This document shows, in pieces, positions 8,768 to 53,892 of a stretch of DNA of 64,000 bases (positions within the stretch are counted from its first letter, which is position 1; each line of letters begins with the position of its first letter). A program made the position numbers and the translations under genes. Under the pieces are notes generated by a model. It worked only from the letters and a program-made list of their open reading frames with translations, was not told the DNA's origin and did not search any database. This DNA is from Ochromonas danica (lineage: Eukaryota > Sar > Chrysophyceae > Chromulinales > Chromulinaceae): positions 1-64,000 of the forward strand of contig VKHL01000005.1 of the NCBI GenBank assembly GCA_015146655.1, written 5' to 3'.

Positions 8768-9653
<886 letters not shown>

Positions 9654-24908: not shown

Positions 24909-26627
24909 ATGACGATGAATGACAATCAAACAAATGATCATCTGGCAGTATCTACCAAGAGATCTTCTTCACTGTGTTTATTCTGAGTGGCTGACTTGGT
25001 CAGATCTCACTGGTTTGGATATTGCTTGTCTGAGCAATGAGGATCGAGAAGAATGATTGTCTTCTCTATCTTCCTTGCTCAAGACAGAAAACGGAAATCT
25101 CCCTTGCAGCTTGAGGAATACAGAATATCACTTTGTTTGCAACGATAGACTTACCAGCTACTATAAATTGCTTGTAAAGCGCTAGTGAGAGATGGTTTTC
25201 CTGTGAGACTGTCTGTATTAGAAGATTTTCTTCGCTATTGTGATCCTATGACCTTCGGTCCTGCTCTACACTCTATATCGATACTAAAAGAGGATAAACA
25301 AACAGCGTCATGTGATGATTCTGGATTATACTCTTCTTTATCATGTTTCTTTGGTCATTGTATTCATCTAGAAGGAGTGAATCAGTCCCTATCGGGCATA
25401 CATAGCAACGAATGTGTAAAGTGGGACAGTATTCTGTATGAGGCATTGAATAATCATTTACAAGGCAACCAATTAGTGAAATTGGGGTTCTACTTTGACG
25501 AGCGTGATATTCTATTGCTTGATAAAGTTGGTACTTGGTTGTCCAAGCATGACAAATGCTTGAAAGCACTTGCAGTGAGTGACTGGTCTAAAGATAATCC
25601 TGGATTTATTCATGTGTTAGAGAATCTTATCAAGTCAAGGCATGCTTTGCGAGCATTAGATATGACTGTGGCGTTCAATAGTTGTAACAACACCATTCTC
25701 CCTTCCTTGTTACAATATCTGTCTTCAGCGGGAATGCTTCTGGTAACATTAATTGTCAATTATTTTGGGGAAGAAGATATCTCTTGGAACGAAGATTCGC
25801 TGTTGTCGTCTATAAGCAGATCTTGTCCGAAGTTGACATGGAATGTGGAAGGGGTTGAATCAGATGAAATCGTTAAGCCATCCTTATTCTATCATCTATG
25901 TCCCAACCTCAAGTACTTAAGTCTTCAAGAATGTATGATTGATGTGGATGAAGATAAGAACAGAATGTATCTCCGTATTCCTTCTCAACCAGTCGATTTG
26001 GAGGATAGTATCGAGTGTTTGTTCCTTGCATTACAAAGAAGGCCGTGCACTCATGTGGGACTATCCATAATAGACGAGGAGATTGAGCTGGGGGATAGTG
26101 AATGGAGTGTAATAAAGAGCAAATTAGGGCCAGTCCTGACTTCTTTAGGTGGCCAAATACCTGAAGATATTTTAATAGACTTTGTAAAGGATCTTCCTCG
26201 CTTGAAGATATTGGATGTGCTGGCCGAACGATACGACTACAGTGATGAAAGTCTATCATCGATAGCAGAATATGGACAGAACTTGACTGAATTGTCCTTC
26301 TATTACGATGCAAATATTTTCGAATTCAGTGAGGAGATGATATATGAGGTGATTAGAAGGTGTTCATTGCTGGAGGTGTTGGAAGTCCCTGGTGTTGGAT
26401 GTCAGGGAATATTATATACAACTCAGCATCTTTCAAGACTGAGGAGTGTGACGTTTGATTATGTGAGGGCAAGCGAAGCAGATATTGTTTCTCTACTGCA
26501 CAGTGAAGAAGTGAGATGGCCATCATGTTTGAGAGAAGGTTGCATCAGTTCATTTGGTGAGTTTGCGTTCGAATACAAACCAAATGCCATCGGATGGTAC
26601 AAAGTTTCGGCATTTAAGGGATGGTAG
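24909..26627 (+). pseudogene. Broken copy of the F-box/LRR-like gene (left arm)
   Basis: Homologous over its whole length to the intact 570-residue gene at 52180-53892. The 5' part is damaged: a TGG codon of the intact copy reads TGA near 25055 next to a short insertion, and near 25175 a TAG and a frame change occur in the segment equivalent to the SYYKWLGSRK block. From 25185 a 480-residue frame remains open, so a shortened protein is conceivable. Up to about 25850 the two copies differ at roughly a third of residues. From the SDEIVKPSLFYHL block to the stop the two proteins are identical. This is a host gene copy, not a virus. Confidence 0.8.
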
Positions 26628-29600
26628 AAGGATGAAACTTTCACCTTTTAAGAAGGCGGCTAGTTACTGCAACAATGGTCTTCCCACGGATTGCCGAACT
26701 AAGATCGTCATCACCCCCTTTCAACTTGATGAGATACAAAGATGTGGGTGAAAACCGGTGTTCTGTAAATTATTACATGTTCAAAAATCTCATTCAGTTA
26801 AAAGTCCCCAGGGAACTTGCTAGCGCTTATCATGTCTCAAGTAGGTCAATGCCAAGTAGTTGCAGATTCTGAATAGTCAACACAAACAAGCAAGACAGTA
26901 GAGAAGAGAGGAAGAAAATCAGAATAATCGCAAAAAATGTAGGAAGTTCTATAAATAGATACTTACACTGCTCCAACAACCAGCAAGCACAGACCCAATA
27001 CATCGTATCCGATATGCTCGTACTTCCAAGTCGTAAACTGGACCTTCGTGATGTAGTCCAAAGCGTCGGTCACAGCCCCATTCGATGTCTTGATCAAAGT
27101 GTGATCATCCTTGAATTGAGAGCTCAACATTCCTTCCAGGCTGTAATGCAGGGGATTCAGCCAATACATGAAGATCCAGAAGTCCGGGAACTTATCTTCC
27201 ACAATGAGGAAACCACAGAACAAAGAAGTCAAGCTGTTGCACAGACCAGACATAACTGACATCATAAATCAAGTTGAAGTTATTTCCGTAATGACAAGCC
27301 TGATAATGAATCATACGTACCTTGTGTTGTTGGTTGATCAGGAGCAAAAGCAGCAAAGAACTGTCCCAGATATAACATAACCCCTTGCATCATGAATGAG
27401 AAGAAGAGAAACCAGAAAAACTTCGGAGTGGCATGACCTGGACTGTTGAGCCCCACAATGTAGAAGAAAGGCAAAGTGAAAGTCACTGAGCTCAAGAACA
27501 GTGTGGGCAAGTCCACCAAGAACATGGCGAAAGTATAAATGGCAGGATGATACATGCGGCTTTGTTGCTCACGATAATATACTCCTCTGTCCAACATGGC
27601 AACAGGGATGACCATGACAATAGCAAGAATACCACAAAACAGAGTGGTGACGTAAATAACTGCCGCTCCAGCAATAAGTTGAATATTGTTGTGATAAGAA
27701 TAGAGAGGATAAGCTGACGCAAAGATCAGAGCAATAATAGCATTCACTACTGGTCGCGTGATCGTGTACATGGGAGAGCGCCAATAGGTCAATGTGAAGC
27801 GATACATGATATTGATGAACTGGTTGATATAAGAGGCATTATAACCTGTCTGTTCTTCCATGTCCTCTGCCGTCAAACGCCTCGAACCGGCAATGGGGCG
27901 ACTCAGTGTATCCAACTGATCAGTATTCACCTCACACAATGCTGAGTTCTTGTAGTGAGCCACGAAGTCTGTCTGATTGCCGCTCGATGATGCCACCGAT
28001 GTGCCCGCGCCAATCACATCTAACATCCACGTCGCTGGATTCATGTGGTGAGGGATTGGCTGAACTCCAGGAGCCCTCTGGAAGTGATCGATGAGGTTCT
28101 TGCCTTGTGATCCCAACTCTCCAAAGAACACAGTCCTGCCTCCTCGCATCAATAGTAGAAGAGAGTCAAATGAGTTGAAGATCACAGTGGAAGGCTGGTG
28201 AATGGTACAGACCACACTGCGACCTGTCGCTGCAATCGTGCGGATGTTATGGACGAGGATCTGCGCTGCACGCGAATCAAGACCAGTCGTGGGCTCGTCA
28301 AGGAAGATGATTGAAGGGTTTGACGCCAGCTCCACACCAATCGACACGCGCTTGCGTTGTTCGAAGCTCATGCCTCCACGACCCAATATTCCAATCTAAC
28401 GGCAACAACAGCCCAATCACTCCCCATACACAAGAAAGCAAACAGTGGGAACCAACCATTTCGTCGGCCAAAGGATCAAGGTCCATCATCTTGATGACGG
28501 AGTTCACCCACTTTGCTCGCTCCTCACTACAAGCAAACATGCCACCAAGCACAACAAATCCGTCAGTCGCACGATATGAACATGGCATCCATCCAAGTAA
28601 ACTAACCCACCTTGTGACATTTCCACTAAGTCTCAAGGCTGCAGAGAAGGCGATCGACTCCTTCGTTGTGCTCTTCGTCGACAACATGTCGAACTGCTCC
28701 ACATAAGCTGTCACCTTGCGAAAGTAAGCATCCACCTTTGGCACACCATTGATGAACATCTCGCCCGTCACTACACCCGTGTTCTTGCGTCCTGCCAACA
28801 CATCCAACAACGTCGTCTTGCCTGCTCCCGATGAGCCCATCAGAGCTGTTACCGACCCTGGAGTGAAGAACCCATTCACATCTTGCAGCAGATCGATCTC
28901 CTCCTTGTTAGGCAACGTGACCCGATAGCCAATGTTCTTGAAAGAGAACACCAGAGGATCAAAGGGCAACTGCTCCACCTTCACAGGTGTAGACAATGCC
29001 TCAGCGCTCTCCACATCATAGCGCTCTTCATCCTCAGCATCGATGCGCACAGGTGGAGGAGGCGTGGGAATGGAACGCACATAGTTCATTGCCATATCGG
29101 TGAGAACGAAGAAGAAGATAAACTCAGCGATCAAGACGGCGAAGGAATACCAGATGTAGCGCTCATTGGTAGGATTGCCATATTGCTTCAAGGTATAGTC
29201 TCCGAAGCGTTCATGCTCTGTGCAGGCTGCATTCACGCAGGTCATGAAATCATACTTCGAAGAAGCATATTCATTCACTGTGACAGCTTTCAAGGCCCAC
29301 GCCAAGGGATTGATCCAATAGAACCAAATCCAACCATCTGAGATGACAGGCTTCGGCTGGATAAAGCCGCTGAACAGCACCGAGAGAACAATGGAAATAC
29401 CACAAAGTGGCAAAGCAGCATTCATCGTGGGCATCAATGCTGCAATCAAACGGAAGATCTGGCTGAAGCAGACTCCAAAGGCGATCGAGATCACTACGTT
29501 GGTGAGAAAGCGAGAACCATTCTCTTGAGCTGAGAGATCTGCTGACCAATACACAATGGAGATGTACAGGATCGCCTCAATGATCTGCAGAGGAAGGAAG

Positions 29601-31294
29601 GCAAGCATCTGAGCAAAGGTAAAAGCAGTTGTGGGGAAGAAGAGAGCGTCCTTCTGCTTATAATAAACATTTCTCTGGTCATAGAGGACTGGCAAAGTGG
29701 AAATGTTAGAAAGACAACTAAAGAGTACAGCGTTGAAGAGAAAGCCATTCATAGTTGTTGTATCTTTGGTGGAGATATTGTTGAACAGTGACCCTGTAAC
29801 TGCACCAATGAGAACACTCTGTCCTATGCGGGAGTTCACAAATGCTGCATTGCGATAGATAATCTGGAACTGTCTTCTCACACATTGTTGGAAGTAGAAA
29901 GACAAGCTGCCTGCAAACTTCTCTCTGGATTCCTTACTCCACTGCTTAGGGGTGCCTTTCGACAACGCGCGAGCATCATCCAGACTGGGATATCTCATCT
30001 CAGCCAACATCTGCTTGTAGATTTCAGATGACTTCCAGGCTGCCGCAAGAGCTGAGGTGGTGTGAGGAACAGATGGTTTCATGCGGTACTTGCGTCCTTC
30101 GGGAGTGGGAAGCTCTTGTAAGAAGTCGGCTTCATCCACCAACTCGGGACATTCATAGCCCAGGTTAGTGAAGTAACTCATCACCTGATCTCGGGGCCCA
30201 TGATAAATGATATGGCCTTCGCTCAACACAATGATGTCGTCAAAGAGATTGTACACATCGGGAGGAGGCTGCAACAGAGAGATCACTGTGGTCAAACCAA
30301 GAGTGTGCGTGAAGGCGCGCACAGAGTTGATGATATCAAAAGCTGTCGCCGAATCCAGACCGTTCGAGATGCAGTCCATCAGCTTCACGGGACGAGGACA
30401 CACCATCAATTCTCCGATCGTCACTCTCCGCTTCTGCCCACCTGAAATACCTCGGATCATCGCATCTCCCACGCAAGTGTCTTTGCAACCCTTCAGACCC
30501 AGCACAGCGATCGTGTTCTGCACCATCGCATACGCGGCATCGTCTTTTCTCAGGATCTCCGCTGCTGCCTCATCGCGAGCAACACCATAGTCATGGTGAC
30601 CACCTGTTGTGCATTCCCATGCGAACTTGAATGTCTCGTCCACAGAGAGGATGGCTTCATGAGTATCTCCTTGCTCGATATAGTCAGCCACTTTGCTGGG
30701 AATAAACTTTCCACTATGGACACTGTCTCCTTCGAAATAGACCTCTCCAGAGTACTTCGCTTTGCCTGAGGAGTGAAGCTTGCCTGCCAATGCCTTCAGC
30801 AAGACTACAGGAGACATGGAGACAATAGCACAGGCAGAAAGAGGGTCAGAGGATGACAACACAGCAAGGGATGGGATGAACTCTAATGACTTACCCGACT
30901 TGCCGGAGCCTGGAGGACCAATCAGAAGAGTCATTCTCCTCGATGGGATTCGACCCGTAGCATCTGCGAGAATGTCAATCTTGCGCTGGGGTGGGAACAA
31001 CTGCCACCAGCAAACCAAAGAAGAGAGGAAGGAACCTGCTGTGTAGATGGAGCGATTGACATCGACTGTAGTGGAGAAGTTCAGATTGTGGAACTCAATA
31101 TCAGTGTCTGGGAGGTTGTATAAGTGCACGCGTTGCTCCAGGTGACGGCGCAGCTCATCAATGCTCCCATCTTCCAAGATAGACACTCCAACAGCATCAA
31201 CAGAAGCAGGTTGGGGCTTCAGTTTGGCTTCAGGAAGCTCAATGCCATGCTCATGCAAGGCTTCTTCTAACTCTTCGATGCAATGCTCCTGGTT
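24909..31294. repeat. Left arm of a giant inverted repeat
   Basis: This arm is the reverse complement of 47498-53892 (paired coordinates sum to 78796 on the inner side of the diverged ABC patch and 78807 on its outer side). It contains the PDR transporter gene from about codon 17 to its end, the 192-bp space between the two 3' ends, and an F-box/LRR-like gene. Introns 1 to 3 and the last ABC intron are the same in both arms by eye. The outer 1 kb is much more diverged. The spacer between the arms is about 16.2 kb. Confidence 0.97.
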
Positions 31295-31342
31295 AACGCA
31301 TGTTAAAGCTTGATGATGGTGAGATTGTATCTGATGGAACAT
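26820..31342 (-). CDS. Full-size PDR-type (ABCG) ABC transporter, left copy
   Basis: Exons 31342-30895, 30804-28611, 28526-28457, 28395-27321, 27255-26967 and 26868-26820 give 1,374 residues in NBD-TMD-NBD-TMD order. NBD1: Walker A GPPGSGKS (interrupted by a 90-bp intron that is itself a multiple of three), signature GISGGQKRR, and a Walker B region LMDCISNGLDSAT in which the catalytic Glu position holds Cys. NBD2: Walker A GSSGAGKTT, signature region MSFEQRKRVSIG, Walker B IIFLDEPTTGLDSR. Both halves have the six-helix ABCG membrane domain and the second half has a large cysteine-containing loop. PDR pumps export lipids and hydrophobic toxins across the plasma membrane. The first 16 residues differ from the right copy because the repeat breakpoint lies inside the coding sequence, so this N-terminus is newly acquired. 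About 170 bp around 27228-27384 differ strongly from the right copy. Confidence 0.93.
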
Positions 31343-31812
31343 GTTGTTGTTGTTGTTGTTGTTGTTGTTGAGGTATTTTCGATAATAATAATATCACACA
31401 ATGAATTGCGTATTATAGATTGAGTACAATATGATTGTGATAACATTCTCACTCGCTTCACTCTAGTTGAGATCGTCATTCTTTTCCACTACTGAGCACG
31501 TGGATGATGTCTCTGCTGATCTCTGATCTCTCTGGACCTATTTTACTTCAAAACATCTCAGCACGTAGTGGCATGCATTATTGTGAAATTCCTTAATAAA
31601 GAGTGAAAATGTTGAGAGTTGAAACTCTGGTTTTCCGACTTTCCTCTTTCCACCATGACTCTTCTGACTTTCCACCATGACGGTCTTCTTGTCACTTTCC
31701 AATTAGGTAGTATAGAGCTTACTGAATTAAGTCTTAGAGTTGGAGTTGTAATCTTAAATTGCAACTACCCTCATTGGTGAGCTGATTGCCATTACTCAAC
31801 ATAATTCAGTAA
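31343..31812. other. Non-coding stretch inside the left breakpoint, with (GTT)n
   Basis: A (GTT)n run at about 31342-31370 directly abuts the ABC start codon. The rest shows no gene. It should act as promoter for the left ABC copy, and it shares nothing visible with the region upstream of the right copy. Confidence 0.6.
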
Positions 31813-32294
31813 GCTGATGTTGTATGCCTTGTTGTTGTAAAATAGAGATAGGTTGGCTTGTAAGATTAAGCATCGGAGGCCCATCTGGCAGTATACCTTG
31901 CAACGCCCCACGTGGAGTCCTTCGTTGCTTGTCCAAGGATCGAATGCGAGGCGTCATGCCCCATTCTTTAGGGTAGTTGGTTGTGGCTTCAAACTTCCGG
32001 CGTGAGTAAAGCACACCACGGCAGAAAGGGGCATGTTCGTCCGTGATCGGTCTGACAAGGGTGACTATGCGATCTACTTCCCCGTGCGCCGTGGTGTGCT
32101 TTACTCACGCCGGAAGTTTGAAGCCACAACCAACTACCCTAAAGAATGGGGCCTCACGCCTCGCATTCGATCCTTGGACAAGCAACGAAGGACTCCACGT
32201 GGGGCGTTGCGAGGTATACTGCCAGATGGGCCTCCGATGCTTAATCTTACAAGCCAACCTATCTCTATTTTATAACAAGACATACAACATCAGC
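31813..32294. repeat. Near-perfect palindrome, 210-bp arms, 65-bp centre
   Basis: Positions 31813-32022 and 32088-32294 are reverse complements of each other with only a few differences (a 3-bp indel in the outer part and scattered substitutions). The 65-bp centre is 32023-32087. The arms carry part of a retroelement-derived coding segment in opposite orientations. Confidence 0.95.
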
Positions 32295-32602
32295 AGCAAA
32301 CAATCCTACAACCTAACTCTGAACAACTGCAGGGACGACAACCTCCTCCTATCCTCGCTGAGCGGCAGGCACCTCCTCAGCCGCAGTCGCAGCAGCCACC
32401 TCCTCCTCACGTCCCAATAATTCCTCAACAGCAGCAACAGCATGAGCCACCCACCACCGTCACACCGATTGCAGCTCAGGAGGGTGGGCTCTTACCTGCT
32501 GGTGTGCCACCACCACCAGCGATGATGATGCCACCACCTTCGGTCATGCCTGATGAACATCCCCCAAGCCCAGCAGCTCAGGAGGGTGGCAACCACCACC
32601 AC

Positions 32603-32661
<59 letters not shown>

Positions 32662-33268
32662 CAACAACAGTAAAGAGGAAATTAGTAGTAGTGAGCAGCA
32701 ATCGAGGCAACAACCAAGGGACCTACCTGCTGTAACTCTAAGAAGGTCCCTCCGTGGCAGTAGTAGATCTAACCCTCTGATGACAACTCAGCAGCATCTC
32801 CACCCTGCTCATCATCAACAACAACACACAGCACCATTGTTATCACTGCAACATGAGCAACAAGAAAGAGGACAGCAGCTTATTACCATGACCACCGACA
32901 GACCCAAGAGGAAAGCAGCGATGACCACCTACAAGGATGGAGGATCGGCAATGCAACGAGCATATGAGCAAGACACAAGAAGAACAGCACCACTGACCAC
33001 AATCGGGCAGCCCTGCTTGACCAACGCCGTGCACCGCATCAGCCCAGCACAAGCACTAAAGGACGAGAGCAGCAGAGATATAACCATGGAAGCAGTGAAA
33101 GCAGAATTCACTAACCTATTAGTGACCCAGAAGGCACTCGAGCCCGTCTTATTACAAGAAATCCCTGAAACAGACAAAAGCAAGATCATTAATGGGCACA
33201 TATTCTTTAAGGACAAGGAAGACATCACAGGAAAACAGATCAGGAAAGGCAGATTTGTACTAATGTGA
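31813..33268 (+). mobile_element. Fossil fragment of a Ty1/copia-type LTR retrotransposon
   Basis: The plus-strand sequence from about 32031 to 33268 resembles the part of a copia polyprotein between the integrase and the first part of the reverse transcriptase: a short DYAIYFP-type block, a Pro/Gln/His-rich linker containing a CAG repeat (32605-32660), then a block with FFKDKEDITGKQ near the end. It is broken and strongly truncated: no gag, protease, integrase core, RNase H or LTR was seen. One end is present a second time in inverted orientation, forming the adjacent palindrome. Age cannot be measured without LTRs; the simple-repeat growth and truncation suggest it is not recent. Confidence 0.6.
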
Positions 33269-34166
33269 TGATTTGCTATCAAAAATCAAATAGGATTCTA
33301 TTGATAGTAAAAATAAGGGATTTAAGGTGAGATTGATTTTTATCACTAGTGTCATTTTCATAAGACGTCTTCACTGACAACCCTGATATAATCACGATTG
33401 CGCAATTGACTTCTGAAAAATAAATTTCAATAGCCATCTTCACTATTTGTATTTATACTCAGGAGCCGACTTCACTAATAGATCATAACGATGAGTATAA
33501 GTGATAATATTATAATGGAACAAGGGTTACTTTCAGCCTCCAATGCAGACTGGGAGAATGCCCGATTTCGTATAGAAGTGATAGCGCCACTAGCGCACTT
33601 AAAAGTTGTTACCTGTAATCTAAAATTTATAAAATAAAATCCTAATAAACGGGCTTTCCCAGCAGTGCTGCGGTTGAGGTTTGAAACTTGGAATATGCGA
33701 GTTTTGGTACTGTGACTTTCCCCCGTTTTGGTTCTTTTAGACATTGGACAAGACCTTTCTTTCTGTTTACAGAGTGATGACTCAAGAGGAGTCATAGTTG
33801 TTGTTGTAATCTACTGTAAGTATCGCATCTTCTATTGGTAAACTACATGTACCATTTCTCAACAAACAAAAACCACCACTCCCCACAGGATAGGGTGGTA
33901 AGCTATTATTGTGGTGCGTGGATTGATTAAAGATGAAGCAGAGCAGAACATGCGCATCTTTATTGCCAAATCCTCTGATGATGGTCACGTCAATGTTGGA
34001 TAGCAGTCAGAGCCTGTAGGACAGGATGACGGAGAGGAAGGGATTGATTTCAGTTGCAGAAAGGTCTTATATGTTCTATGCAACATCAAAGCCATAGCTT
34101 CTTCATCCTTCTTCATCATCTTATCAATGCCTTCATCAATGCTTGCAGCAATCAACCTCTTCATCC
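33269..34166. other. Unassigned stretch between retroelement fossil and ankyrin gene
   Basis: About 900 bp with no convincing gene on either strand. It may include decayed mobile-element sequence, but no family features were recognised. Confidence 0.5.
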
Positions 34167-34248
34167 TTATATTGCTCCCTTGGCCCTCAGAAGTGCTTTA
34201 ATGTCTTCTTCATCAGCAGCATCTAGAGCAGTCTTTCCTCTCTAACCC

Positions 34249-34304
<56 letters not shown>

Positions 34305-38233: not shown

Positions 38234-38763
38234 CAAATAGGAAAATATGAGATGAATATAATATATAATTTAAGGTTGAGGTAGAGTAGATAGGATAAAT
38301 TAATGTTTTGAGCACTTCTTGTAGCTCTTCTTTGAGATGAGATGCAATCAAATGGGACAGACAGTGCAATTCCAATCCATTTTGATTCCATTTCTCTTGT
38401 TGGTGAGGCGAAAACCGCGTTTTTCGGAGGTACCTGCCACAACCGCAGCGGTACAGTACCAGTGAATTTTAAGGTCTTTCACCACATCGTCAAGCTACAG
38501 TATAAAAAGTATAAAAGAGTACCATTTAGATTTCAGCTACAGTATCTATCGCAAGGCCTGCCTGCATCTCCTGGATCAGCTGCATTCGCTTCTTTGCTGG
38601 TTTTCGGTGGGTGTGTTGAAAAGCGCTGTAGTATTGTTTTGCGCGGGGAGCCCTACGCTGATGGAGGTGAGATTAGATGCCGATTGCTTTGAGTGTATTT
38701 GATTTCTAATCATCATATAGATCTTTCTTAATTTTTACTTTCTTTTCTTTTTTTCTTTTCAAT
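38234..38763. other. Divergent region, ankyrin gene / histidine kinase
   Basis: About 530 bp. On the minus strand short open stretches around 38300-38400 could be a 5' leader exon of the ankyrin gene, but no start or splice pair is convincing. On the plus strand it must contain the kinase promoter and a T-rich leader just before the start codon. Confidence 0.5.
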
Positions 38764-41699: not shown

Positions 41700-42079
41700 C
41701 TTTTGTGGCCAATTCTCTCTATTTGTACATTATTTGTTGTTATTTATTTGTGTTGTATGATCATTAGTTTATGAGCTGTTCCTGTTAGTCATTTGGTTTA
41801 CTATACCTTTCTGGAAGAAGGATATGTATATAAGATGTATTTAGTATTCTTCACCCCTTATCTAATAAATAACCTATTATCGAAATTCACTTCGTAAATC
41901 AAAGGCTTAAACTGTGGTGATCAATGAAGTGAATCGTTAGGAGATGGTTATTGTGACGTTAAGATACAGAACACGATCACGCATCATGTAGAATTTCATA
42001 CACAAAGTACGGCATCATCTTACGACAACTCTCTGCTGTTTGATCCGAATACAATAGGTAAAGTGTATGTAGTATCATT
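41700..42079. other. Convergent intergenic region
   Basis: 3' ends of the hybrid kinase (+) and the large solenoid-like protein (-) face each other. AT-rich, with AATAAA-like sequence near 41864 that could serve as a poly(A) signal for the kinase. No gene. Confidence 0.55.
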
Positions 42080-45000
42080 TCAAAGGACTAGCGATAGATA
42101 ACCCCCACTGATTGAATGAACAAACCTCTCAGCTTCACTTAGAATTGTCACTAGAACTTGAGGATCTTCACATCGAATGCAAAGCTGACCCACAAGAACA
42201 TCTCCACTTTCCAATGCTGCAAGCAAAGGTGATGGTAGAGATAAAGAAGTTGCTGGATTGAGTTCAGGAAGCAAAGAGACAGCAATCCCTGAACCCCATA
42301 CAGTCTGCAGACCCCAACCTAAGGCATCAAAAGGAATTTGAGGTAAACCTCTTGTCTCAACGTGTTTACTGTCCCAAACTGAGGATGATGATGATGATGA
42401 AGTTGTGGGGGCTACAAATACTCGAGGATCATAGGAAAGTATACCATCACCAGCATGATAAGAACAAGCGGGGGTCCGTACAGCAACACTTGCAGGTCCC
42501 AATAGGTCTGTAACCTCCACAGAATGATTTGCGCCATGACTAAGCCAGATAGCATGCCATACTTCAGCTATCAAAGAAGTTGATACTGACACAGATGAAG
42601 AAGAAGGAAGGGTAACACAACCTACAACTGTCAGGAGATGTGAATGACGACAACTGAGACGTTGAAAGAGATGATTATAAGTTGCCCAAGGTATTCCAGC
42701 TGATCCAACTAACCAAGACTCTAATAAGCTTGTACCACATACTCGTTGGTAATATTGACGATATGCTGAGAGAGAATTTCCTCGATAAGGTGTTAGAAGA
42801 TAAGCTAAAGGGACTTTAAGTGGCTCGCAAGTCAGTAATGCTTGCCATTTTCCACTACTTGCTCCACCTAATCCACTAGCATACAGACCATCTACACCAC
42901 TTTGACGATGTTGAGCAGTCGCAGCGGTATAACGAAGAGTCGTAGGTGGAAGTAGAAAAGGTGATTCAGCTTCACCACTACCATGAGGCAGAGTATCATC
43001 ATAGATCAAATCAGGATAGACAATACGTAAGCAAAGGCGAAAAGGAGCAAAATATTCAATCTTGATCGAGAAAACTCGTTCTATCATAGCACCAGGAGAC
43101 AGATAGTCTCCACCAATAGCTACAGAAGTTCCTTCGGGATAGGCTACTAACTTCGTAGCTTGCATTAGATCAATGACATTAGGAGTGTATAGACAGGTAT
43201 CTGTGAGAGGAACAAGTAATGTTGGTGTAGGATCCGTTGAAACAAGAAGATGGATAGTGAAGAATGTCACTTTGAATGAAGCTTGATTATAAATACGTAC
43301 TTTCACTCTAACATTATCCTTTTCTTCACCCATTTGTAGATTTGCTAAGACTAATAACAAGTCATTCCCAGAACTAATCTGTGTAAATCCATGCTGTTCT
43401 TGTAATGCATCAAATAGATTACTTTTTGTCTCTAACAACAATGTATCATCTAATGTAACACTAGCAGGAGAGATGGATAAACTTGTATTAGATTGAGTGA
43501 GTAAGTTTCGACAATATGTCTCTAATACATCTTCTTCACTTTCTCTATCATGAGGAATAGCATAAAGATGAGGAGAAATAATATCAAATGTACTAGCAAG
43601 ATTATCCAAATCGACGGTATTATAATCACCTCCAATTGTATTACCATTATTAGAAGAATTATTATCAGCAGTCAGGATAGAAGACAGGAAAGAGTAGATC
43701 GATAAACGACGTGTAAATGCTGCAGCTGTTGGCCATCTTGACTGTGTATAGAATACTTCTAATTGTTCTCTTCCTTTTTGTAAAGGTGATAAGTTAGTTG
43801 AAGTCATGGTTAACAATGTCTTAGAAGCAGTTTGTCTGTCAACTATTTGAGAAGAAGCAAACGATAATTCTAACAGATCATTTCCAAATGAAGGTTGTTC
43901 AATATGACTTTTTGATTCCAAGCCATTGAAACCTGAATCAGTAGTGGTAATACTAGTAGTAGAAAGAGATTGACAAAAGGTGGTCAAATGTTTCTTCACT
44001 TGTACTAATTCAGCAATTTGATTCAACTTCTTGTCATAACCTTTAAGACCAAATCTACTCAAACTACGTGCAATCACTTCTTCAACTACTTGGATTGAAT
44101 CAATAGGATTGGTTAAACTACTCTTGTTCTTATCATTCCATTTGTTAAGAAGTGTCATTGATCGTTGAAGGAAAAGGATAACCTCTTCTTGGAAAGATGG
44201 TAAACAATACAATAGTGAAGATACTCCTTCTTGTTCTTCTTCATTTCCTATCAACACGTTATTATTATCATTATCAGCATCATCGTCGTTCTCTGCATCA
44301 AGTTCTATTCCATTTCGACTTCTTTCGAATAGTTGTGGTTGAATGAATTTCAACAGACGCATACTCTCACTTTCTATCAATGTCTTTCGTAATAGTTTGA
44401 GAAACCCTTGTACCATATCACGCACAGATTCATTCTCTGCTAAGGCAATAATAACACTTTGAACGATCTCAAGCGCTTGCATGGCTACTAAACTGATTGT
44501 TGCATTGTTATTACTATCTATCACAGTACATTCTTCACTATCTAATGTCACTCCAAGTACTCCCAATTGAGTATTCGAATTGATTTTACGATTAATCAAG
44601 TGACGAGGTAGTTCATCAAAGAGTAGAGAATGTGCAAGTTGAATTGAGAATGCTGTGATATCTTGAATCTTTGTCTGACTTAACCTAGCACTTTGTCTCG
44701 TATAGAGATGAGGAAGGGCATAGAGATTTGTCAGTAAAGTCAGACGTATGCATAAGTCACCTCCCATCAGATAGAGAGAAGATATGTCCCGCAGCTGTTC
44801 TGATGACTTCACAGTGATAGAAGATACATTTCGTTGACAATCCAGCACATGCAAGACAAGGTTAGCTAAGAGATCTTGATAGGTTTGAACTTCTTCATTA
44901 TGTGCTAACAAGGTTGATACAACTATCTTCTCATTCTCTCTCACGAAATAGTAATCACATAGAGAACGAGTTAACGCCAATAGAGAACGAACACTCTGTC

Positions 45001-46921
45001 TAGAAAGAGACGTCTCAGGCATTGGTGAAGCTTTTTCAAGTGATTTGGGTAGAAGAAGATGAAGAAGACGAAGAGCATCATAGGTATAGGTCAAGAAAAT
45101 TTGCTGAGTTTCTTCAATCGCATCAGCAAAAGCCTCTTGAATGAGTGATAGATCTACTTCATCATCATCATGATCATCTCCATCATCTAAAATGCAATTT
45201 TGTCCATATAAAGCAAGAGCATGTTGTACTTCCTCTACTGTAGTATAACGAAGAAGAAAGTAATATTTGTGTAAGATAGGAGCAGATGATTGAAAACGCC
45301 ATCGAGGAGGTGCTCTTGTTAATACACGCTCAAGACGACGACGTAACTTGGACTTTTGGTTCCGCTTTTCCATCCCTTCCTCCTCCTCCTCTTCCTCTGA
45401 CTCCCCCACTTTGCCAACGAGGCTACTTTCAGGGAAGCTGAGTATGAGATGGAGTATGTGCTGAAGATAGGCAGATAGACTCTGAGCGAAAGCAATGACT
45501 ACCGAATCATTGATGGCAGTTGAAGATTTCGTGAGTCGAGAAAGAATTTCACCCACCAAAGAGCTTCTTGTGATAATACCATCACTTCCATCCATCCAAG
45601 ACTGTGTGTCTTTTCGAGAAATGATATAACGGAGCATGTTCTCTGATGTCTCAGCTTCAAGTAGAATAGCAACAACTTCTGTAGTGAGTCTACCCGCTAG
45701 TGTTAACTGCTCATCACCTAAAAGCGCTAAACGTTCAAATAGCCACAAACAAGACTCCAAATATTTTGGATTGATATCTGCACTGCTGGATTGATATTGT
45801 AAAGCAGAAAATGAGCGTAACGACAAGATAGCCCAACATAATAGTTGATCATAACTTGCCACCTCTTCAACCTCTTCATTATAACGATCCATGAGATATA
45901 CCGTTGCATCAAAAAGTAAAGGAGATAGTCGTTGACTCAGTTTTTGTAACCATGGATGTTGGCAAAATAAGAGAATATCCTTCGTGATCAAACTTCGTTG
46001 TCGTAATGAGAACAAATACCCTTCTCCTTGACTTAATACACTAAGAAGTGTTCCTTCAACCCACTCACTAATGAAAGGAATCAAAGGTATTGGATGGTCA
46101 CCAGGTCTTCCTGTTACAACATTCTCATCGCCAGCATTGCTTTGTGCGGCAAACAGCTTCTTTGTACTTTCTAATAAAGGTAAGACTAATGTAGGTCGGT
46201 TAGTAGGTATATCACTCTCCCATGCTTGTAATAATAAGAATAGGAATTGATTGACAAGTAGAACAGCACCATTCTGATAAGATAAATCTCTTCTAGCTCG
46301 TTCTAACCAAAGGAAAGGATCATCAAAGAGAATATCTACCATTTTCTGAACTAAAGGACTTAATCCAATTGATCTATTCTTTAAAGACATTCTTCTTGTA
46401 AACCCACATAAACTATCCATCCAATCGTCTAAATCTTCATATGCTCGTGTGAAAATAGCCAACAAATCCGCCAAAACGAGAGAGACGGCATGATCTAACT
46501 CAACGGACTTGTCAGTGGAAGTGCTCATGGCTAAGAGAGCAAAACCTTTCCAACTCTCTTGGATAAAGTCTATAAGATCTTCTTTTTTCCTTTGGACATC
46601 TGACCAACTTTCCAATTGACAACTTCCTTCTAATTCTTCTTCTTCTTGTAATATTACCCAAAGACGTATTAAGATTCTTCCTCCAAATATAATAGAGATA
46701 GAGCGTAAAGAGTCATTTTCATGAATAAATGCTGATTTCAGAATTGTTAATGTCTCTGATAAGGTGAAAAAGGATAAGAAATCAATTGCTTCGAATTGAA
46801 AGATTTCTTCAAAAGAATGCTTTATATCTTCTTCAATTCCTTCTCCTAATCCTTCTTTTAATCTTGCACTAAGAGATAGAATAGATTCACTGTTTGACAT
46901 GGTACCAATAGAATCAATCAA
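42080..46921 (-). CDS. Very large helical-solenoid protein with beta-rich C-terminus, unknown
   Basis: One uninterrupted frame of 1,613 residues, the longest in the window; a second Met at codon 8 could be the true start. Residues 1 to about 1,060 are almost wholly amphipathic helices with Leu-rich faces and acidic loops (SEEEEEEEGMEKR; DAENDDDADNDNNN), resembling HEAT/armadillo solenoids. From about 1,200 the sequence turns into beta strands (VRVKVRIYNQASFKVTFF, FSIKIEYFAPFRLCLRIV) and then a mixed domain ending QVLVTILSEAERFVHSI. Solenoid, then beta-sandwich, then appendage is the order seen in adaptin and TPLATE-type coat subunits, so a trafficking coat protein is a reasonable but weak guess. 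No catalytic motif was seen. Confidence 0.8.
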   Translation of the reverse strand: MIDSIGTMSNSESILSLSARLKEGLGEGIEEDIKHSFEEIFQFEAIDFLSFFTLSETLTILKSAFIHENDSLRSISIIFGGRILIRLWVILQEEEELEGSCQLESWSDVQRKKEDLIDFIQESWKGFALLAMSTSTDKSVELDHAVSLVLADLLAIFTRAYEDLDDWMDSLCGFTRRMSLKNRSIGLSPLVQKMVDILFDDPFLWLERARRDLSYQNGAVLLVNQFLFLLLQAWESDIPTNRPTLVLPLLESTKKLFAAQSNAGDENVVTGRPGDHPIPLIPFISEWVEGTLLSVLSQGEGYLFSLRQRSLITKDILLFCQHPWLQKLSQRLSPLLFDATVYLMDRYNEEVEEVASYDQLLCWAILSLRSFSALQYQSSSADINPKYLESCLWLFERLALLGDEQLTLAGRLTTEVVAILLEAETSENMLRYIISRKDTQSWMDGSDGIITRSSLVGEILSRLTKSSTAINDSVVIAFAQSLSAYLQHILHLILSFPESSLVGKVGESEEEEEEEGMEKRNQKSKLRRRLERVLTRAPPRWRFQSSAPILHKYYFLLRYTTVEEVQHALALYGQNCILDDGDDHDDDEVDLSLIQEAFADAIEETQQIFLTYTYDALRLLHLLLPKSLEKASPMPETSLSRQSVRSLLALTRSLCDYYFVRENEKIVVSTLLAHNEEVQTYQDLLANLVLHVLDCQRNVSSITVKSSEQLRDISSLYLMGGDLCIRLTLLTNLYALPHLYTRQSARLSQTKIQDITAFSIQLAHSLLFDELPRHLINRKINSNTQLGVLGVTLDSEECTVIDSNNNATISLVAMQALEIVQSVIIALAENESVRDMVQGFLKLLRKTLIESESMRLLKFIQPQLFERSRNGIELDAENDDDADNDNNNVLIGNEEEQEGVSSLLYCLPSFQEEVILFLQRSMTLLNKWNDKNKSSLTNPIDSIQVVEEVIARSLSRFGLKGYDKKLNQIAELVQVKKHLTTFCQSLSTTSITTTDSGFNGLESKSHIEQPSFGNDLLELSFASSQIVDRQTASKTLLTMTSTNLSPLQKGREQLEVFYTQSRWPTAAAFTRRLSIYSFLSSILTADNNSSNNGNTIGGDYNTVDLDNLASTFDIISPHLYAIPHDRESEEDVLETYCRNLLTQSNTSLSISPASVTLDDTLLLETKSNLFDALQEQHGFTQISSGNDLLLVLANLQMGEEKDNVRVKVRIYNQASFKVTFFTIHLLVSTDPTPTLLVPLTDTCLYTPNVIDLMQATKLVAYPEGTSVAIGGDYLSPGAMIERVFSIKIEYFAPFRLCLRIVYPDLIYDDTLPHGSGEAESPFLLPPTTLRYTAATAQHRQSGVDGLYASGLGGASSGKWQALLTCEPLKVPLAYLLTPYRGNSLSAYRQYYQRVCGTSLLESWLVGSAGIPWATYNHLFQRLSCRHSHLLTVVGCVTLPSSSSVSVSTSLIAEVWHAIWLSHGANHSVEVTDLLGPASVAVRTPACSYHAGDGILSYDPRVFVAPTTSSSSSSSVWDSKHVETRGLPQIPFDALGWGLQTVWGSGIAVSLLPELNPATSLSLPSPLLAALESGDVLVGQLCIRCEDPQVLVTILSEAERFVHSISGGYLSLVL

Positions 46922-47420
46922 TCAATCAATCTCTCTGTTTTGACCAAGTCTCAACTCAATCAATCAACAAGCGGTCAAACAAGAGCTGGGAATCTGATCT
47001 AGGAATTTGGAAATTTAGTCCAAATAGTCAGAGTTTCAGAAGTTCAGGAGTTTAGAGTTTCAGAATTTTAGAAGGTTGGGATTTGGGAGTGCAAAGTGGT
47101 GCGGCTCTGCCTCGAAACTCCGCGGGACCTTGACTGGTTCAGGAAGGGAGAGAGAGATTTCCTTGAGATCCCGACATCGAAGTGGGTTCTCACCTCCGCT
47201 GGTGTGCTTACTGTGTGGACGATTCTAAGATCTCTGCCTTGTACTCTCCGGGACAAAGAATGGAGGAGAGGGGATTACCATCTTATTTTGGCCATGGTGG
47301 GAACAAAGAGAAATATCCGATGCAATGGAAGATGATCTCACAAACAAATTATCATTCTGAGACGACAACCAAAACAAGTCAACTAGGAAATTACGAAACA
47401 ATAGAAGCTAACCAGCCTAC
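46922..47420. other. Upstream of right ABC copy, partly GC-richer
   Basis: Starts with AATC tandem repeats and an AT-rich stretch. From about 47090 to 47330 the composition becomes noticeably GC-richer with no clear protein. It has no resemblance to the region upstream of the left ABC copy. It should hold the promoter of the right ABC gene and, on the other strand, that of the solenoid-like protein. Confidence 0.5.
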
Positions 47421-50400
47421 ATGACCAACGCAAACGAAAACACATCATATTCGATGTTGGCAGATAACAAGATCCGATCAGAACTCGCTCTGCAGGTTGT
47501 TGACCAGGAGCATCGCATCGAAGAGTTAGAAGAAGCCTTGCATGAGCATGGCATTGAGCTTCCTGAAGCCAAACTGAAGCCCCAACCTGCTTCTGTTGAT
47601 GCTGTTGGAGTGTCTATCTTGGAAGATGGGAGCATTGATGAGCTGCGCCGTCACCTGGAGCAACGCGTGCACTTATACAACCTCCCAGACACTGATATTG
47701 AGTTCCACAATCTGAACTTCTCCACTACAGTCGATGTCAATCGCTCCATCTACACAGCAGGTTCCTTCCTCTCTTCTTTGGTTTGCTGGTGGCAGTTGTT
47801 CCCACCCCAGCGCAAGATTGACATTCTCGCAGATGCTACGGGTCGAATCCCATCGAGGAGAATGACTCTTCTGATTGGTCCTCCAGGCTCCGGCAAGTCG
47901 GGTAAGTCATTAGAGTTCATCCCATCCCTTGCTGTGTTGTCATCCTCTGACCCTCTTTCTGCCTGTGCTATTGTCTCCATGTCTCCTGTAGTCTTGCTGA
48001 AGGCATTGGCAGGCAAGCTTCACTCCTCAGGCAAAGCGAAGTACTCTGGAGAGGTCTATTTCGAAGGAGACAGTGTCCATAGTGGAAAGTTTATTCCCAG
48101 CAAAGTGGCTGACTATATCGAGCAAGGAGATACTCATGAAGCCATCCTCTCTGTGGACGAGACATTCAAGTTCGCATGGGAATGCACAACAGGTGGTCAC
48201 CATGACTATGGTGTTGCTCGCGATGAGGCAGCAGCGGAGATCCTGAGAAAAGACGATGCCGCGTATGCGATGGTGCAGAACACGATCGCTGTGCTGGGTC
48301 TGAAGGGTTGCAAAGACACTTGCGTGGGAGATGCGATGATCCGAGGTATTTCAGGTGGGCAGAAGCGGAGAGTGACGATCGGAGAATTGATGGTGTGTCC
48401 TCGTCCCGTGAAGCTGATGGACTGCATCTCGAACGGTCTGGATTCGGCGACAGCTTTTGATATCATCAACTCTGTGCGCGCCTTCACGCACACTCTTGGT
48501 TTGACCACAGTGATCTCTCTGTTGCAGCCTCCTCCCGATGTGTACAATCTCTTTGACGACATCATTGTGTTGAGCGAAGGCCATATCATTTATCATGGGC
48601 CCCGAGATCAGGTGATGAGTTACTTCACTAACCTGGGCTATGAATGTCCCGAGTTGGTGGATGAAGCCGACTTCTTACAAGAGCTTCCCACTCCCGAAGG
48701 ACGCAAGTACCGCATGAAACCATCTGTTCCTCACACCACCTCAGCTCTTGCGGCAGCCTGGAAGTCATCTGAAATCTACAAGCAGATGTTGGCTGAGATG
48801 AGATATCCCAGTCTGGATGATGCTCGCGCGTTGTCGAAAGGCACCCCTAAGCAGTGGAGTAAGGAATCCAGAGAGAAGTTTGCAGGCAGCTTGTCTTTCT
48901 ACTTCCAACAATGTGTGAGAAGACAGTTCCAGATTATCTATCGCAATGCAGCATTTGTGAACTCCCGCATAGGACAGAGTGTTCTCATTGGTGCAGTTAC
49001 AGGGTCACTGTTCAACAATATCTCCACCAAAGATACAACAACTATGAATGGCTTTCTCTTCAACGCTGTACTCTTTAGTTGTCTTTCTAACATTTCCACT
49101 TTGCCAGTCCTCTATGACCAGAGAAATGTTTATTATAAGCAGAAGGACGCTCTCTTCTTCCCCACAACTGCTTTTACCTTTGCTCAGATGCTTGCCTTCC
49201 TTCCTCTGCAGATCATTGAGGCGATCCTGTACATCTCCATTGTGTATTGGTCAGCAGATCTCTCAGCTCAAGAGAATGGTTCTCGCTTTCTCACCAACGT
49301 AGTGATCTCGATCGCCTTTGGAGTCTGCTTCAGCCAGATCTTCCGTTTGATTGCAGCATTGATGCCCACGATGAATGCTGCTTTGCCACTTTGTGGTATT
49401 TCCATTGTTCTCTCGGTGCTGTTCAGCGGCTTTATCCAGCCGAAGCCTGTCATCTCAGATGGTTGGATTTGGTTCTATTGGATCAATCCCTTGGCGTGGG
49501 CCTTGAAAGCTGTCACAGTGAATGAATATGCTTCTTCGAAGTATGATTTCATGACCTGCGTGAATGCAGCCTGCACAGAGCATGAACGCTTCGGAGACTA
49601 TACCTTGAAGCAATATGGCAATCCTACCAATGAGCGCTACATCTGGTATTCCTTCGCCGTCTTGATCGCTGAGTTTATCTTCTTCTTCGTTCTCACCGAT
49701 ATGGCAATGAACTATGTGCGTTCCATTCCCACGCCTCCTCCACCTGTGCGCATCGATGCTGAGGATGAAGAGCGCTATGATGTGGAGAGCGCTGAGGCAT
49801 TGTCTACACCTGTGAAGGTGGAGCAGTTGCCCTTTGATCCTCTGGTGTTCTCTTTCAAGAACATTGGCTATCGGGTCACGTTGCCTAACAAGGAGGAGAT
49901 CGATCTGCTGCAAGATGTGAATGGGTTCTTCACTCCAGGGTCGGTAACAGCTCTGATGGGCTCATCGGGAGCAGGCAAGACGACGTTGTTGGATGTGTTG
50001 GCAGGACGCAAGAACACGGGTGTAGTGACGGGCGAGATGTTCATCAATGGTGTGCCAAAGGTGGATGCTTACTTTCGCAAGGTGACAGCTTATGTGGAGC
50101 AGTTCGACATGTTGTCGACGAAGAGCACAACGAAGGAGTCGATCGCCTTCTCTGCAGCCTTGAGACTTAGTGGAAATGTCACAAGGTGGGTTAGTTTACT
50201 TGGATGGATGCCATGTTCATATCGTGCGACTGACGGATTTGTTGTGCTTGGTGGCATGTTTGCTTGTAGTGAGGAGCGAGCAAAGTGGGTGAACTCCGTC
50301 ATCAAGATGATGGACCTTGATCCTTTGGCCGACGAAATGGTTGGTTCCCACTGTTTGCTTTCTTGTGTATGGGGAGTGATTGGGCTGTTGTTGCCGTTAG

Positions 50401-51987
50401 ATTGGAATATTGGGTCGTGGAGGCATGAGCTTCGAACAACGCAAGCGCGTGTCGATTGGTGTGGAGCTGGCGTCAAACCCTTCAATCATCTTCCTTGACG
50501 AGCCCACGACTGGTCTTGATTCGCGTGCAGCGCAGATCCTCGTCCATAACATCCGCACGATTGCAGCGACAGGTCGCAGTGTGGTCTGTACCATTCACCA
50601 GCCTTCCACTGTGATCTTCAACTCATTTGACTCTCTTCTACTATTGATGCGAGGAGGCAGGACTGTGTTCTTTGGAGAGTTGGGATCACAAGGCAAGAAC
50701 CTCATCGATCACTTCCAGAGGGCTCCTGGAGTTCAGCCAATCCCTCACCACATGAATCCAGCGACGTGGATGTTAGATGTGATTGGCGCGGGCACATCGG
50801 TGGCATCATCGAGCGGCAATCAGACAGACTTCGTGGCTCACTACAAGAACTCAGCATTGTGTGAGGTGAATACTGATCAGTTGGATACACTGAGTCGCCC
50901 CATTGCCGGTTCGAGGCGTTTGACGGCAGAGGACATGGAAGAACAGACAGGTTATAATGCCTCTTATATCAACCAGTTCATCAATATCATGTATCGCTTC
51001 ACATTGACCTATTGGCGCTCTCCCATGTACACGATCACGCGACCAGTAGTGAATGCTATTATTGCTCTGATCTTTGCGTCAGCTTATCCTCTCTATTCTT
51101 ATCACAACAATATTCAACTTATTGCTGGAGCGGCAGTTATTTACGTCACCACTCTGTTTTGTGGTATTCTTGCTATTGTCATGGTCATCCCTGTTGCCAT
51201 GTTGGACAGAGGAGTATATTATCGTGAGCAACAAAGCCGCATGTATCATCCTGCCATTTATACTTTCGCCATGTTCTTGGTGGACTTGCCCACACTGTTC
51301 TTGAGCTCAGTGACTTTCACTTTGCCTTTCTTCTACATTGTGGGGCTCAACAGTCCAGGTCATGCCACTCCGAAGTTTTTCTGGTTTCTCTTCTTCTCAT
51401 TCATGATGCAAGGAGTGTTTTTGTATTTGGGCCAGTTCTTTGGTGCTCTGACTCCCGATGAAGCCACATCTCAAGGTTAGTACTTTTGTTTACTGATTTG
51501 GTTTAGACTGGGCTGATCAATGAGATGCTGCTTCATGTTCTGCTTTGTTAGTGGCGGTGGGATTATGTAATACTGCCACATCTTTGTTCTGTGGCTTCCT
51601 CATTGTGGAAGACAAGTTCCCGGACTTCTGGATCTTCATGTATTGGCTGAATCCCCTGCATTACAGCCTGGAAGGATTGTACAGCTCTCAATTCAAGGAT
51701 GATCACACTTTGATCAAGACATCGAATGGGGCTGTGACCGACGCTTTGGACTACATCACGAAGGTCCAGTTTACGACTTGGAAGTACGAGCATATCGGAT
51801 ACGATGTATTGGGTCTGTGCTTGCTGGTTGTTGGAGCAGTGTAAGTATCTATTTATAGAACTTCCTACATTTTTTGCGATTATTCTGATTTTCTTCCTCT
51901 CTTCTCTACTGTCTTGCTTGTTTGTGTTGACTATTCAGAATCTGCAACTACTTGGCATTGACCTACTTGAGACATGATAAGCGCTAG
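47421..51987 (+). CDS. Full-size PDR-type (ABCG) ABC transporter, right copy
   Basis: Exons 47421-47901, 47992-50185, 50270-50339, 50401-51475, 51552-51840 and 51939-51987 give 1,385 residues. Domain order and motifs match the left copy: NBD1 with GPPGSGKS near residue 152 and the unusual DCISNGLDSAT, TMD1 at about 470-700, NBD2 with GSSGAGKTT near 817 and a canonical FLDEPTTGLDSR, TMD2, and a final exon of 16 codons ending LRHDKR. The N-terminal 27 residues (MTNANENTSYSMLADNK...) are present only here and are probably the ancestral start, because the breakpoint of the repeat lies just inside them. Codon choice is visibly richer in G and C at third positions than in the flanking genes. Likely plasma-membrane efflux of hydrophobic compounds. 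Confidence 0.95.
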
Positions 51988-53892
51988 CAAGTTCCCTGGG
52001 GACTTTTAACTGAATGAGATTTTTGAACATGTAATAATTTACAGAACACCGGTTTTCACCCACATCTTTGTATCTCATCAAGTTGAAAGGGGGTGATGAC
52101 GATCTTAGTTCGGCAATCCGTGGGAAGACCATTGTTGCAGTAACTAGCCGCCTTCTTAAAAGGTGAAAGTTTCATCCTTCTACCATCCCTTAAATGCCGA
52201 AACTTTGTACCATCCGATGGCATTTGGTTTGTATTCGAACGCAAACTCACCAAATGAACTGATGCAACCTTCTCTCAAACATGATGGCCATCTCACTTCT
52301 TCACTGTGCAGTAGAGAAACAATATCTGCTTCGCTTGCCCTCACATAATCAAACGTCACACTCCTCAGTCTTGAAAGATGCTGAGTTGTATATAATATTC
52401 CCTGACATCCAACACCAGGGACTTCCAACACCTCCAGCAATGAACACCTTCTAATCACCTCATATATCATCTCCTCACTGAATTCGAAAATATTTGCATC
52501 GTAATAGAAGGACAATTCAGTCAAGTTCTGTCCATATTCTGCTATCGATGATAGACTTTCATCACTGTAGTCGTATCGTTCGGCCAGCACATCCAATATC
52601 TTCAAGCGAGGAAGATCCTTTACAAAGTCTATTAAAATATCTTCAGGTATTTGGCCACCTAAAGAAGTCAGGACTGGCCCTAATTTGCTCTTTATTACAC
52701 TCCATTCACTATCCCCCAGCTCAATCTCCTCGTCTATTATGGATAGTCCCACATGAGTGCACGGCCTTCTTTGTAATGCAAGGAACAAACACTCGATACT
52801 ATCCTCCAAATCGACTGGTTGAGAAGGAATACGGAGATACATTCTGTTCTTATCTTCATCCACATCAATCATACATTCTTGAAGACTTAAGTACTTGAGG
52901 TTGGGACATAGATGATAGAATAAGGATGGCTTAACGATTTCATCTGATTCAACTCCCTCCACATTCCATGTCAACCTCTCCAACTTCGGACAAGATCTGC
53001 TTATAGACAGCAGCGAATCCTCGCTCAAAGAGATGTCTTCTTCCCCAGAAGAATCGACAATTAATGTTTCCAGAAACAATCCCGCTGAAGACAGATATTG
53101 TAACAAGGAAGGGAGAATGGTGCTGTTACCACTTTTGAACATCAAGTTAATATCTAATGCTCGCAAAGCATGCCTTGACTTGATAAGATTCTCTAACACA
53201 TGAATCAATCCAGGATTATCATCAGACCAGTCATGCACTTCAAGTTCTTTCAAGCTTTTGTCATGCTTGGACAACAAAGTACCCATTTTTTCAAGCAATA
53301 GGTTATCACGCTCATGAAAGTAGATTCCCATTTTCACTAATTGATTGTCTTGCAAATGCTTATTCAATGCTGTATACAGAATATTGTTTAGCCTAGCACG
53401 TTCTTTGTCATTTATGCCCAAATCTCTCGCACTTATTGCCTCTAAATGCTTACAATGACTCAAGAAACATGACAAAGAAGACTCTAATCTTGAATCATCA
53501 CACGAGTCTATTCTTTTACTCTCAAGGAGTATCACTATAGAGTGTAGAGCAGGACAGAAGGACACAGGGTCACAAAGGTGAAGAAGATCTTCCAATACAG
53601 ACAGCCGCATAGGAAATTTATCCCTCACTAACACTTTACGACTGCCTAACCATTTATAGTAGCTAACAAGTCTCTCATTGTGTATATAGTCATGTTTTAT
53701 TTTCATCAAGCTACATGCCTCTGTCTTCAACAAGGAAGATACAGAAGACAACCATTCTTCTTGATTACTCAGACAAGCAATATCCAAGGCGGAGAGATCT
53801 GACCAAGTCAGCCACTCAGAATAAACACAATGAAGAAGATCTCTAGGTAGATACTGCCAGATCATTTGTTTGAACGTCATCGTCATCATCAC
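47498..53892. repeat. Right arm of the giant inverted repeat
   Basis: Reverse complement of 24909-31294. The inner breakpoint is at about 47498-47503, within codons 27-28 of the ABC gene. The outer end coincides with the start codon region of the F-box/LRR-like gene, beyond which no similarity to the left flank is seen. Confidence 0.97.
52180..53892 (-). CDS. F-box/LRR-like protein, intact copy
   Basis: Single exon, 570 residues. The N-terminal FKQMIWQYLPRDLLHCVYSE, WLTWSDLSALDIAC segment looks like an F-box-type helical motif (LP-x-DLL start, then W-x-x-L-x-x-LD). The rest contains irregular leucine-rich units such as LRALDINLMF, LPSLLQYLSSAGLFLETL, CPNLKYLSLQEC, LPRLKILDVLAE, YGQNLTELSFYY and CSLLEVLEVPGV, spaced about 25-30 residues. 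A substrate-recruiting subunit of an SCF ubiquitin ligase is possible; many algae have large families of such LRR proteins of unknown role. It converges on the ABC gene with 192 bp between stop codons. The left copy is broken in its 5' half. Confidence 0.8.
   Translation of the reverse strand: MMMTMTFKQMIWQYLPRDLLHCVYSEWLTWSDLSALDIACLSNQEEWLSSVSSLLKTEACSLMKIKHDYIHNERLVSYYKWLGSRKVLVRDKFPMRLSVLEDLLHLCDPVSFCPALHSIVILLESKRIDSCDDSRLESSLSCFLSHCKHLEAISARDLGINDKERARLNNILYTALNKHLQDNQLVKMGIYFHERDNLLLEKMGTLLSKHDKSLKELEVHDWSDDNPGLIHVLENLIKSRHALRALDINLMFKSGNSTILPSLLQYLSSAGLFLETLIVDSSGEEDISLSEDSLLSISRSCPKLERLTWNVEGVESDEIVKPSLFYHLCPNLKYLSLQECMIDVDEDKNRMYLRIPSQPVDLEDSIECLFLALQRRPCTHVGLSIIDEEIELGDSEWSVIKSKLGPVLTSLGGQIPEDILIDFVKDLPRLKILDVLAERYDYSDESLSSIAEYGQNLTELSFYYDANIFEFSEEMIYEVIRRCSLLEVLEVPGVGCQGILYTTQHLSRLRSVTFDYVRASEADIVSLLHSEEVRWPSCLREGCISSFGEFAFEYKPNAIGWYKVSAFKGW

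Follow-up and report, generated by a model that had tools for sequence, protein, structure and literature searches.

Recent interlocus gene conversion as a probable source of exact tracts in an old inverted repeat of PDR-type transporter genes in Ochromonas danica

Two oppositely oriented copies of a gene pair in the golden alga Ochromonas danica are identical to the base over kilobases and strongly diverged immediately beside, which raises the question of how this identity arose and whether the inverted arrangement is responsible for it. The locus lies in a window of 64,000 nucleotides, the whole stretch analysed here (positions 1 to 64,000, forward strand, of contig VKHL01000005.1, hereafter C5, assembly GCA_015146655.1), and was compared with the genome assembly of 31.19 Mb in 337 contigs. 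When the window was compared with itself, a single large inverted repeat emerged, in which 47499-53891 pairs with 31297-24910 of the opposite strand at 95.9% identity over 6,425 columns, in agreement with the 6.4-kb arms and 16.2-kb spacer described in the first-pass annotation.

24910..31297, no strand assigned: arm A (window self-comparison)
47499..53891, no strand assigned: arm B (window self-comparison)
31298..47498, no strand assigned: spacer, 16,201 bp

Homology of the arms stops at 31297/47499. The nearly constant coordinate sums reported earlier were recovered (27383+51413 = 78796 and 25870+52937 = 78807), and the shift of 11 corresponds to an 11-bp gap within a divergent island. Each arm also carries, as described, the same convergent gene pair in mirror orientation, a PDR-type ABC transporter gene and a second gene.

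26820..31342, minus strand: PDR/ABCG-type transporter gene copy A, with introns (limits approximate)
47421..51987, plus strand: PDR/ABCG-type transporter gene copy B, with introns (limits approximate)
24910..26627, plus strand: putative LRR-like gene copy A, with an in-frame stop and a frame change in its divergent 5' part
52180..53892, minus strand: putative LRR-like gene copy B, an open reading frame

Copy B has the layout of a full-size PDR/ABCG transporter, with two ABC_tran stretches and an ABC2_membrane domain in 47412-50495 and a second ABC2_membrane domain in 50401-51477 (Pfam). The PDB matches of a full-length relative, P0009, were CDR1, Pdr5 and ABCG chains. The N-terminal start of copy B is common to T1 and T2, a direct tandem pair of PDR genes about 180 kb away on C5, and is absent from copy A. 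Regarding the second gene, no Pfam match was obtained in either arm at E<=0.01. Among 12 members of its family searched at E<=10, weak matches to LRR_At5g56370 (3/12, best 2.3e-4) and to LRR_4 (3/12, best 0.0015) were found, and no F-box model was listed, in a search where the HMMER filters drop most weak matches. The earlier label of an F-box/LRR-like gene is plausible in its LRR-like part, and its F-box part found no support in this search. This family (P0131) is very large, with at least 84 matched stretches across many contigs and a conserved N-terminal motif.

The average of 95.9% masks a mosaic in which exact identity stands beside strong divergence.

24910..25869, no strand assigned: arm A outer end, old divergence (partner about 52938-53891)
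25870..27124, no strand assigned: exact tract 1, 1,255 bp with zero differences to arm B (partner 51683-52937)
27125..27382, no strand assigned: divergent island of 258 bp in the 3' part of the PDR gene (partner 51414-51682)
27383..31281, no strand assigned: exact tract 2, zero differences over 3,899 bp (partner 47515-51413)

At the outer end (24.91-25.87 kb), the two arms are about 80% identical, with 82.8% of 889 compared bases matching over 24950-25860. Within the island, a 65-bp exon piece is 72% identical, the intron 47% and a 110-bp exon piece 90%. Both exact tracts taken together include introns and intergenic DNA, so that protein constraint is ruled out as the cause of the identity.

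The LRR-like genes were also compared with dispersed paralogues on two other contigs, C27 and C106. Outside the tract, the LRR-like genes of the two arms (A-B, 82.8%) are mutually no closer than to these paralogues (A-C27, 81.7%; A-C106, 81.5%; B-C27, 84.8%; B-C106, 83.8%), while inside the tract A-B reaches 100% and the other pairs remain at 80.8-85.4%. The arm genes are therefore old paralogues and the exact blocks young. The transporter behaves similarly: in tract 2, A and B are 100% identical to each other and each 89.8% identical to T1, while in the 65-bp island exon B is closer to T1 (89%) than to A (72%; A-T1, 75%). The 110-bp exon shows no such change (A-B, 90.0%; A-T1 and B-T1, 88.2% each). 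Relationships thus switch between tract and neighbouring sequence in the LRR-like gene (889 bp) and in the 65-bp exon, not in the 110-bp exon.

Sharp-edged tracts of near-identity inside older divergence were found in both A/B and T1/T2. Together with the switching relationships, the exact tracts strongly support the earlier proposal of gene conversion between the arms, and we consider it highly probable (about 0.85), judging from sequence comparison, that the arms go back to an old inverted duplication and that interlocus gene conversion has homogenised them recently. According to this model, a convergent pair formed by a PDR/ABCG transporter gene and an LRR-like gene would have been duplicated in inverted orientation long ago. 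Later, a break or gap repaired by homology, in one or a few events, would have replaced the DNA of one arm by a copy of the other (ectopic conversion) in two tracts that total at least 5.15 kb and show no divergence since then. Arm B may have served as the donor and arm A, perhaps an older and damaged copy, as the recipient. As the 110-bp exon shows no change of relationship, this direction relies on the 65 bp, the N-terminus and the damaged LRR-like gene of A, short stretches that favour B as the donor.

A recent inverted duplication of the whole arm, with no conversion of an older copy, would also account for most of the arm being exact. However, the outer part of the LRR-like gene is as diverged between the arms (82.8%) as among dispersed paralogues (81.5-84.8%), and the island interrupts the exact sequence. 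Since a single recent copying would not yield both the old outer divergence and the island, this origin is very improbable. Slightly less remote, and still improbable, is an assembly artefact in which the sequence of one arm was used to fill, correct or polish the other, giving a false exact identity. The contig begins in a CA repeat and neighbouring copies in this genome often share exact identity, as such an artefact might predict, but the arms retain distinct outer ends and the island, and stretches of 96-99% exist, so that identity is not all-or-none. Scaffold names of a separate O. danica protein set further carry a number, 'cov', which we read as depth. Proteins matching a single place had values of 164 (P0122), 176 (P0121), 184 (P0123 and P0126), 248 (P0015) and 264 (P0131), to which are added 170 (P0007, at 94-98%) and 176 (P0152, copy 3 on contig C279, the other two copies being at 93-97%), that is 164-264 with a median of 176. 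Those matching neighbouring pairs had 368 (P0182, a pair on contig C44, counted as exact from equal match scores and not from DNA comparison), 387 (P0001, T1/T2) and 517 (P0143, the arms, from which it differs at 1 of 287 residues). The exact pairs therefore stand at about 2-3 times the single-place genes (three pairs versus seven scaffolds), the high single-place values showing the noise of the measure. P0169, 96% identical to the C44 pair, had a value of 266, and seven further O. danica LRR-like proteins (cov 108-262) had no locus match above 97% and were not placed. These values fit two real copies collapsed in the separate assembly, although that of the arms would fit three, and they make the artefact less likely. 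Elsewhere, EukProt proteins of O. danica matched the C27 LRR-like gene at 100% over 583 residues, those of C106 and C94 at 99.5-100%, and the T1/T2 transporters at 99.7% over 638 residues. A HiFi and Nanopore assembly has been published for O. danica strain SAG 933-7 (PMC12220804).

The first-pass annotation had placed weight on the inverted orientation, with its folding and instability. This emphasis did not hold, since T1 and T2, in direct orientation, are identical over 4,091 bp flanked by divergent edges, and other neighbouring copies behave alike. Three PDR copies on C279 share exact runs of up to 4,379 bp, the PDR copies on C9 at least 3,798 bp and those on C97 1,931 bp, and tandem LRR-like copies on C94 up to 1,727 bp. 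A comparison of 15 units (105 pairs), in which those of C9, C97 and C167 are partial stretches, gave a longest exact run of 1,931-4,379 bp in 7/7 neighbouring pairs, of 358 bp in 4/4 pairs separated by about 180 kb on one contig and of at most 65 bp in 94/94 pairs on different contigs. In a separate comparison of loci, the pairs L003/L004, L015/L016 and L063/L064 amounted to a single case appearing three times, and a 1,040-bp identity between L007 and L008 was discarded, as the two overlap on the genome. The 358-bp run links the arms to T1/T2, loci on C5 about 180 kb apart and 89.8% identical on average, and could reflect long-range conversion. Stretches of 96-99% identity are also present among the clustered copies, as expected of conversions of different age.

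Inverted orientation was consequently rejected as the cause of homogenisation, direct-orientation neighbours sharing equally long exact runs. From the same pattern in directly oriented PDR and LRR-like neighbours, it appears that closeness of the copies matters, and not inversion, with the confounder that neighbours possibly arose by more recent duplication than the dispersed copies. Crossing over can occur between exact inverted tracts, and the arms could in this way flip the 16-kb spacer and place it in both orientations in different cells or strains. We regard such an invertible segment as unlikely here; direct pairs are equally alike, and inversion does not explain the homogenisation.

The spacer and the flank contain further features.

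31813-32294: near-perfect foldback of 482 bp, at a distance of about 0.5 kb from the inner end of arm A
34504-37404, minus strand: a series of repeated exons with a strong GC skew
38710-41699: histidine-kinase gene in the spacer
42080-46921, minus strand: open frame of 1,613 codons

The foldback has a DNA folding energy of -274 kcal/mol (z -47) and runs into an open reading frame (32276-33268) with no Pfam match. One of the GC-skewed exons encodes an ankyrin repeat (Pfam Ank, E 3.8e-9), and the segment 34090-34280 has at least 30 relatives, at about 75-89% identity, on many contigs. Relatives of the histidine-kinase gene are clustered on C57, with mutual exact runs of up to 399 bp, and opposite-strand pairs of histidine-kinase-like matches with equal scores, each pair within one contig (C20, C174 and C53), are possible further homogenised inverted duplicates. 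CA repeats are located at 1-76 and 8881-9060, and the contig starts inside the first; a subtelomeric position was rejected, as this start is not a telomere-like repeat. Rfam at gathering thresholds returned 0 matches.

Positions of the divergent islands within the pump were numbered on P0009 (1,423 aa), and the coding differences of each pair were located as follows.

A/B: codons 1292-1356
T1/T2: codons 1310-1400
C279 copies 1 and 2: codons 1287-1323, plus 52-59 at the tract edge
C9: codons 1312-1401, plus three near the start
C97: codons 640-712 (read over about codons 47-894 only)
C279 copies 1 and 3: codons 427-733

Windows covering TM4-TM5 (635-690) and TM10-TM11 (1285-1337), drawn by eye after seeing the data, contain 91 of the 139 differing codons against 10.9 expected on rotating each set along the gene, and 0/20,000 rotations gave so high a count. 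TM5 and TM11 alone hold 48/139 (1/20,000 rotations) and TM11 alone 33/139 (5/20,000); the two C279 pairs in this test share one copy. Taken singly, the pairs gave rotation values of 0.009-0.05 for the TM4-TM5/TM10-TM11 windows, except C9 with 0.16. Among the PDR clusters compared, divergent islands thus tend to fall in TM10-TM11 or in the matching TM4-TM5. In Pdr5, rhodamine 6G is described as sitting between TH2, TH5a, TH8 and TH11a, S1360 included (PMC8421411), and S1360 aligns with about codon 1319, uncertain by about three residues owing to a gap, where T1 and T2 differ in amino acid. According to a review of Candida Cdr1, TMH5 and TMH11 hold many drug-recognition residues (PMC7908972).

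One tentative reading, with the odds somewhat against it, is that conversion keeps clustered PDR pumps identical except in the drug-pocket helices, selection acting against conversion events by which the copies would lose their differences in cargo recognition. If so, the copies would have one common maintained pump chassis with separate pocket modules. The islands contain 65 amino-acid-changing and 63 silent differing codons, compared with 87 changing and 155 silent in the background of B versus T1 outside the island (one-sided Fisher P 0.004) and with 40 changing and 71 silent in its transmembrane part (Fisher P 0.015). Two of the six pairs taken singly were below 0.05 for this excess, and the greater divergence of the islands could inflate the ratio of changing to silent codons. 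Selection on the drug pocket is possible. The excess is modest, as would also suit a purely mechanical barrier, to which we give a little short of an even chance, whereby a fast-changing intron in the code for TM11 would stop conversion with no selection on the protein. An intron is inferred at the island in A/B, where it is 47% identical, in T1/T2 and in C279. However, exact tracts contain other inferred introns of the PDR gene, C9 lacks an intron at this place and yet its exact run stops at codon 1311-1312, and the C97 island, in the matching place of TMD1, lies in an open frame, which weakens a general intron barrier. Exchange of islands between clusters was also considered and rejected, A and C279 copy 1 sharing 73% of 60 bases (1290-1309) versus 58% of 108 (1240-1286), stretches that are too short; this comparison left out codons 1314-1335, where the mapping of C279 was wrong and part of the T1 sequence was intron. 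Seen in this way, the conspicuous inverted repeat becomes an example of concerted evolution in a golden alga that can be measured. Should the sparing of the pocket helices hold, the genome would mark the part of a multidrug pump that must differ for duplicates to be worthwhile, an idea open to direct test by exchange of the part concerned.

In Caenorhabditis, paralogous gene pairs are described from long inverted repeats of near-perfect identity (PMC1803023); as in O. danica, convergent or divergent paralogues lie in the repeats, and conversion is one of the mechanisms offered. The arms of F44E5.4 measure 2,207 bp around a 126-bp spacer at 99.7%, whereas those of O. danica reach 6.4 kb around 16.2 kb and form a mosaic with an island; the authors favour selection for the structure, while in O. 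danica direct repeats behave alike. In copepod GOT1 paralogues, regions of high and low divergence likewise adjoin under conversion (PMC3728101), but this is one animal gene family, and in O. danica several transporter clusters have their islands at corresponding transmembrane segments. Identical transporter paralogues in a stramenopile, with conversion suggested, are also known from the silicon transporters of the diatom Synedra ulna subsp. danica, in an account that, unlike ours, includes neither mosaic edges nor depth evidence in the parts consulted (PMC6114903). Local PDR clusters, with gene conversion suggested in one case, occur in yeast PDR arrays, and exact tracts and recurrent islands, present in O. 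danica, are absent from the consulted parts of that account (PMC2763886). Among the matches listed in the open-licence literature, no title or abstract described the pattern of recurrent islands. The locus belongs to a known class; the position at which the islands recur may be new.
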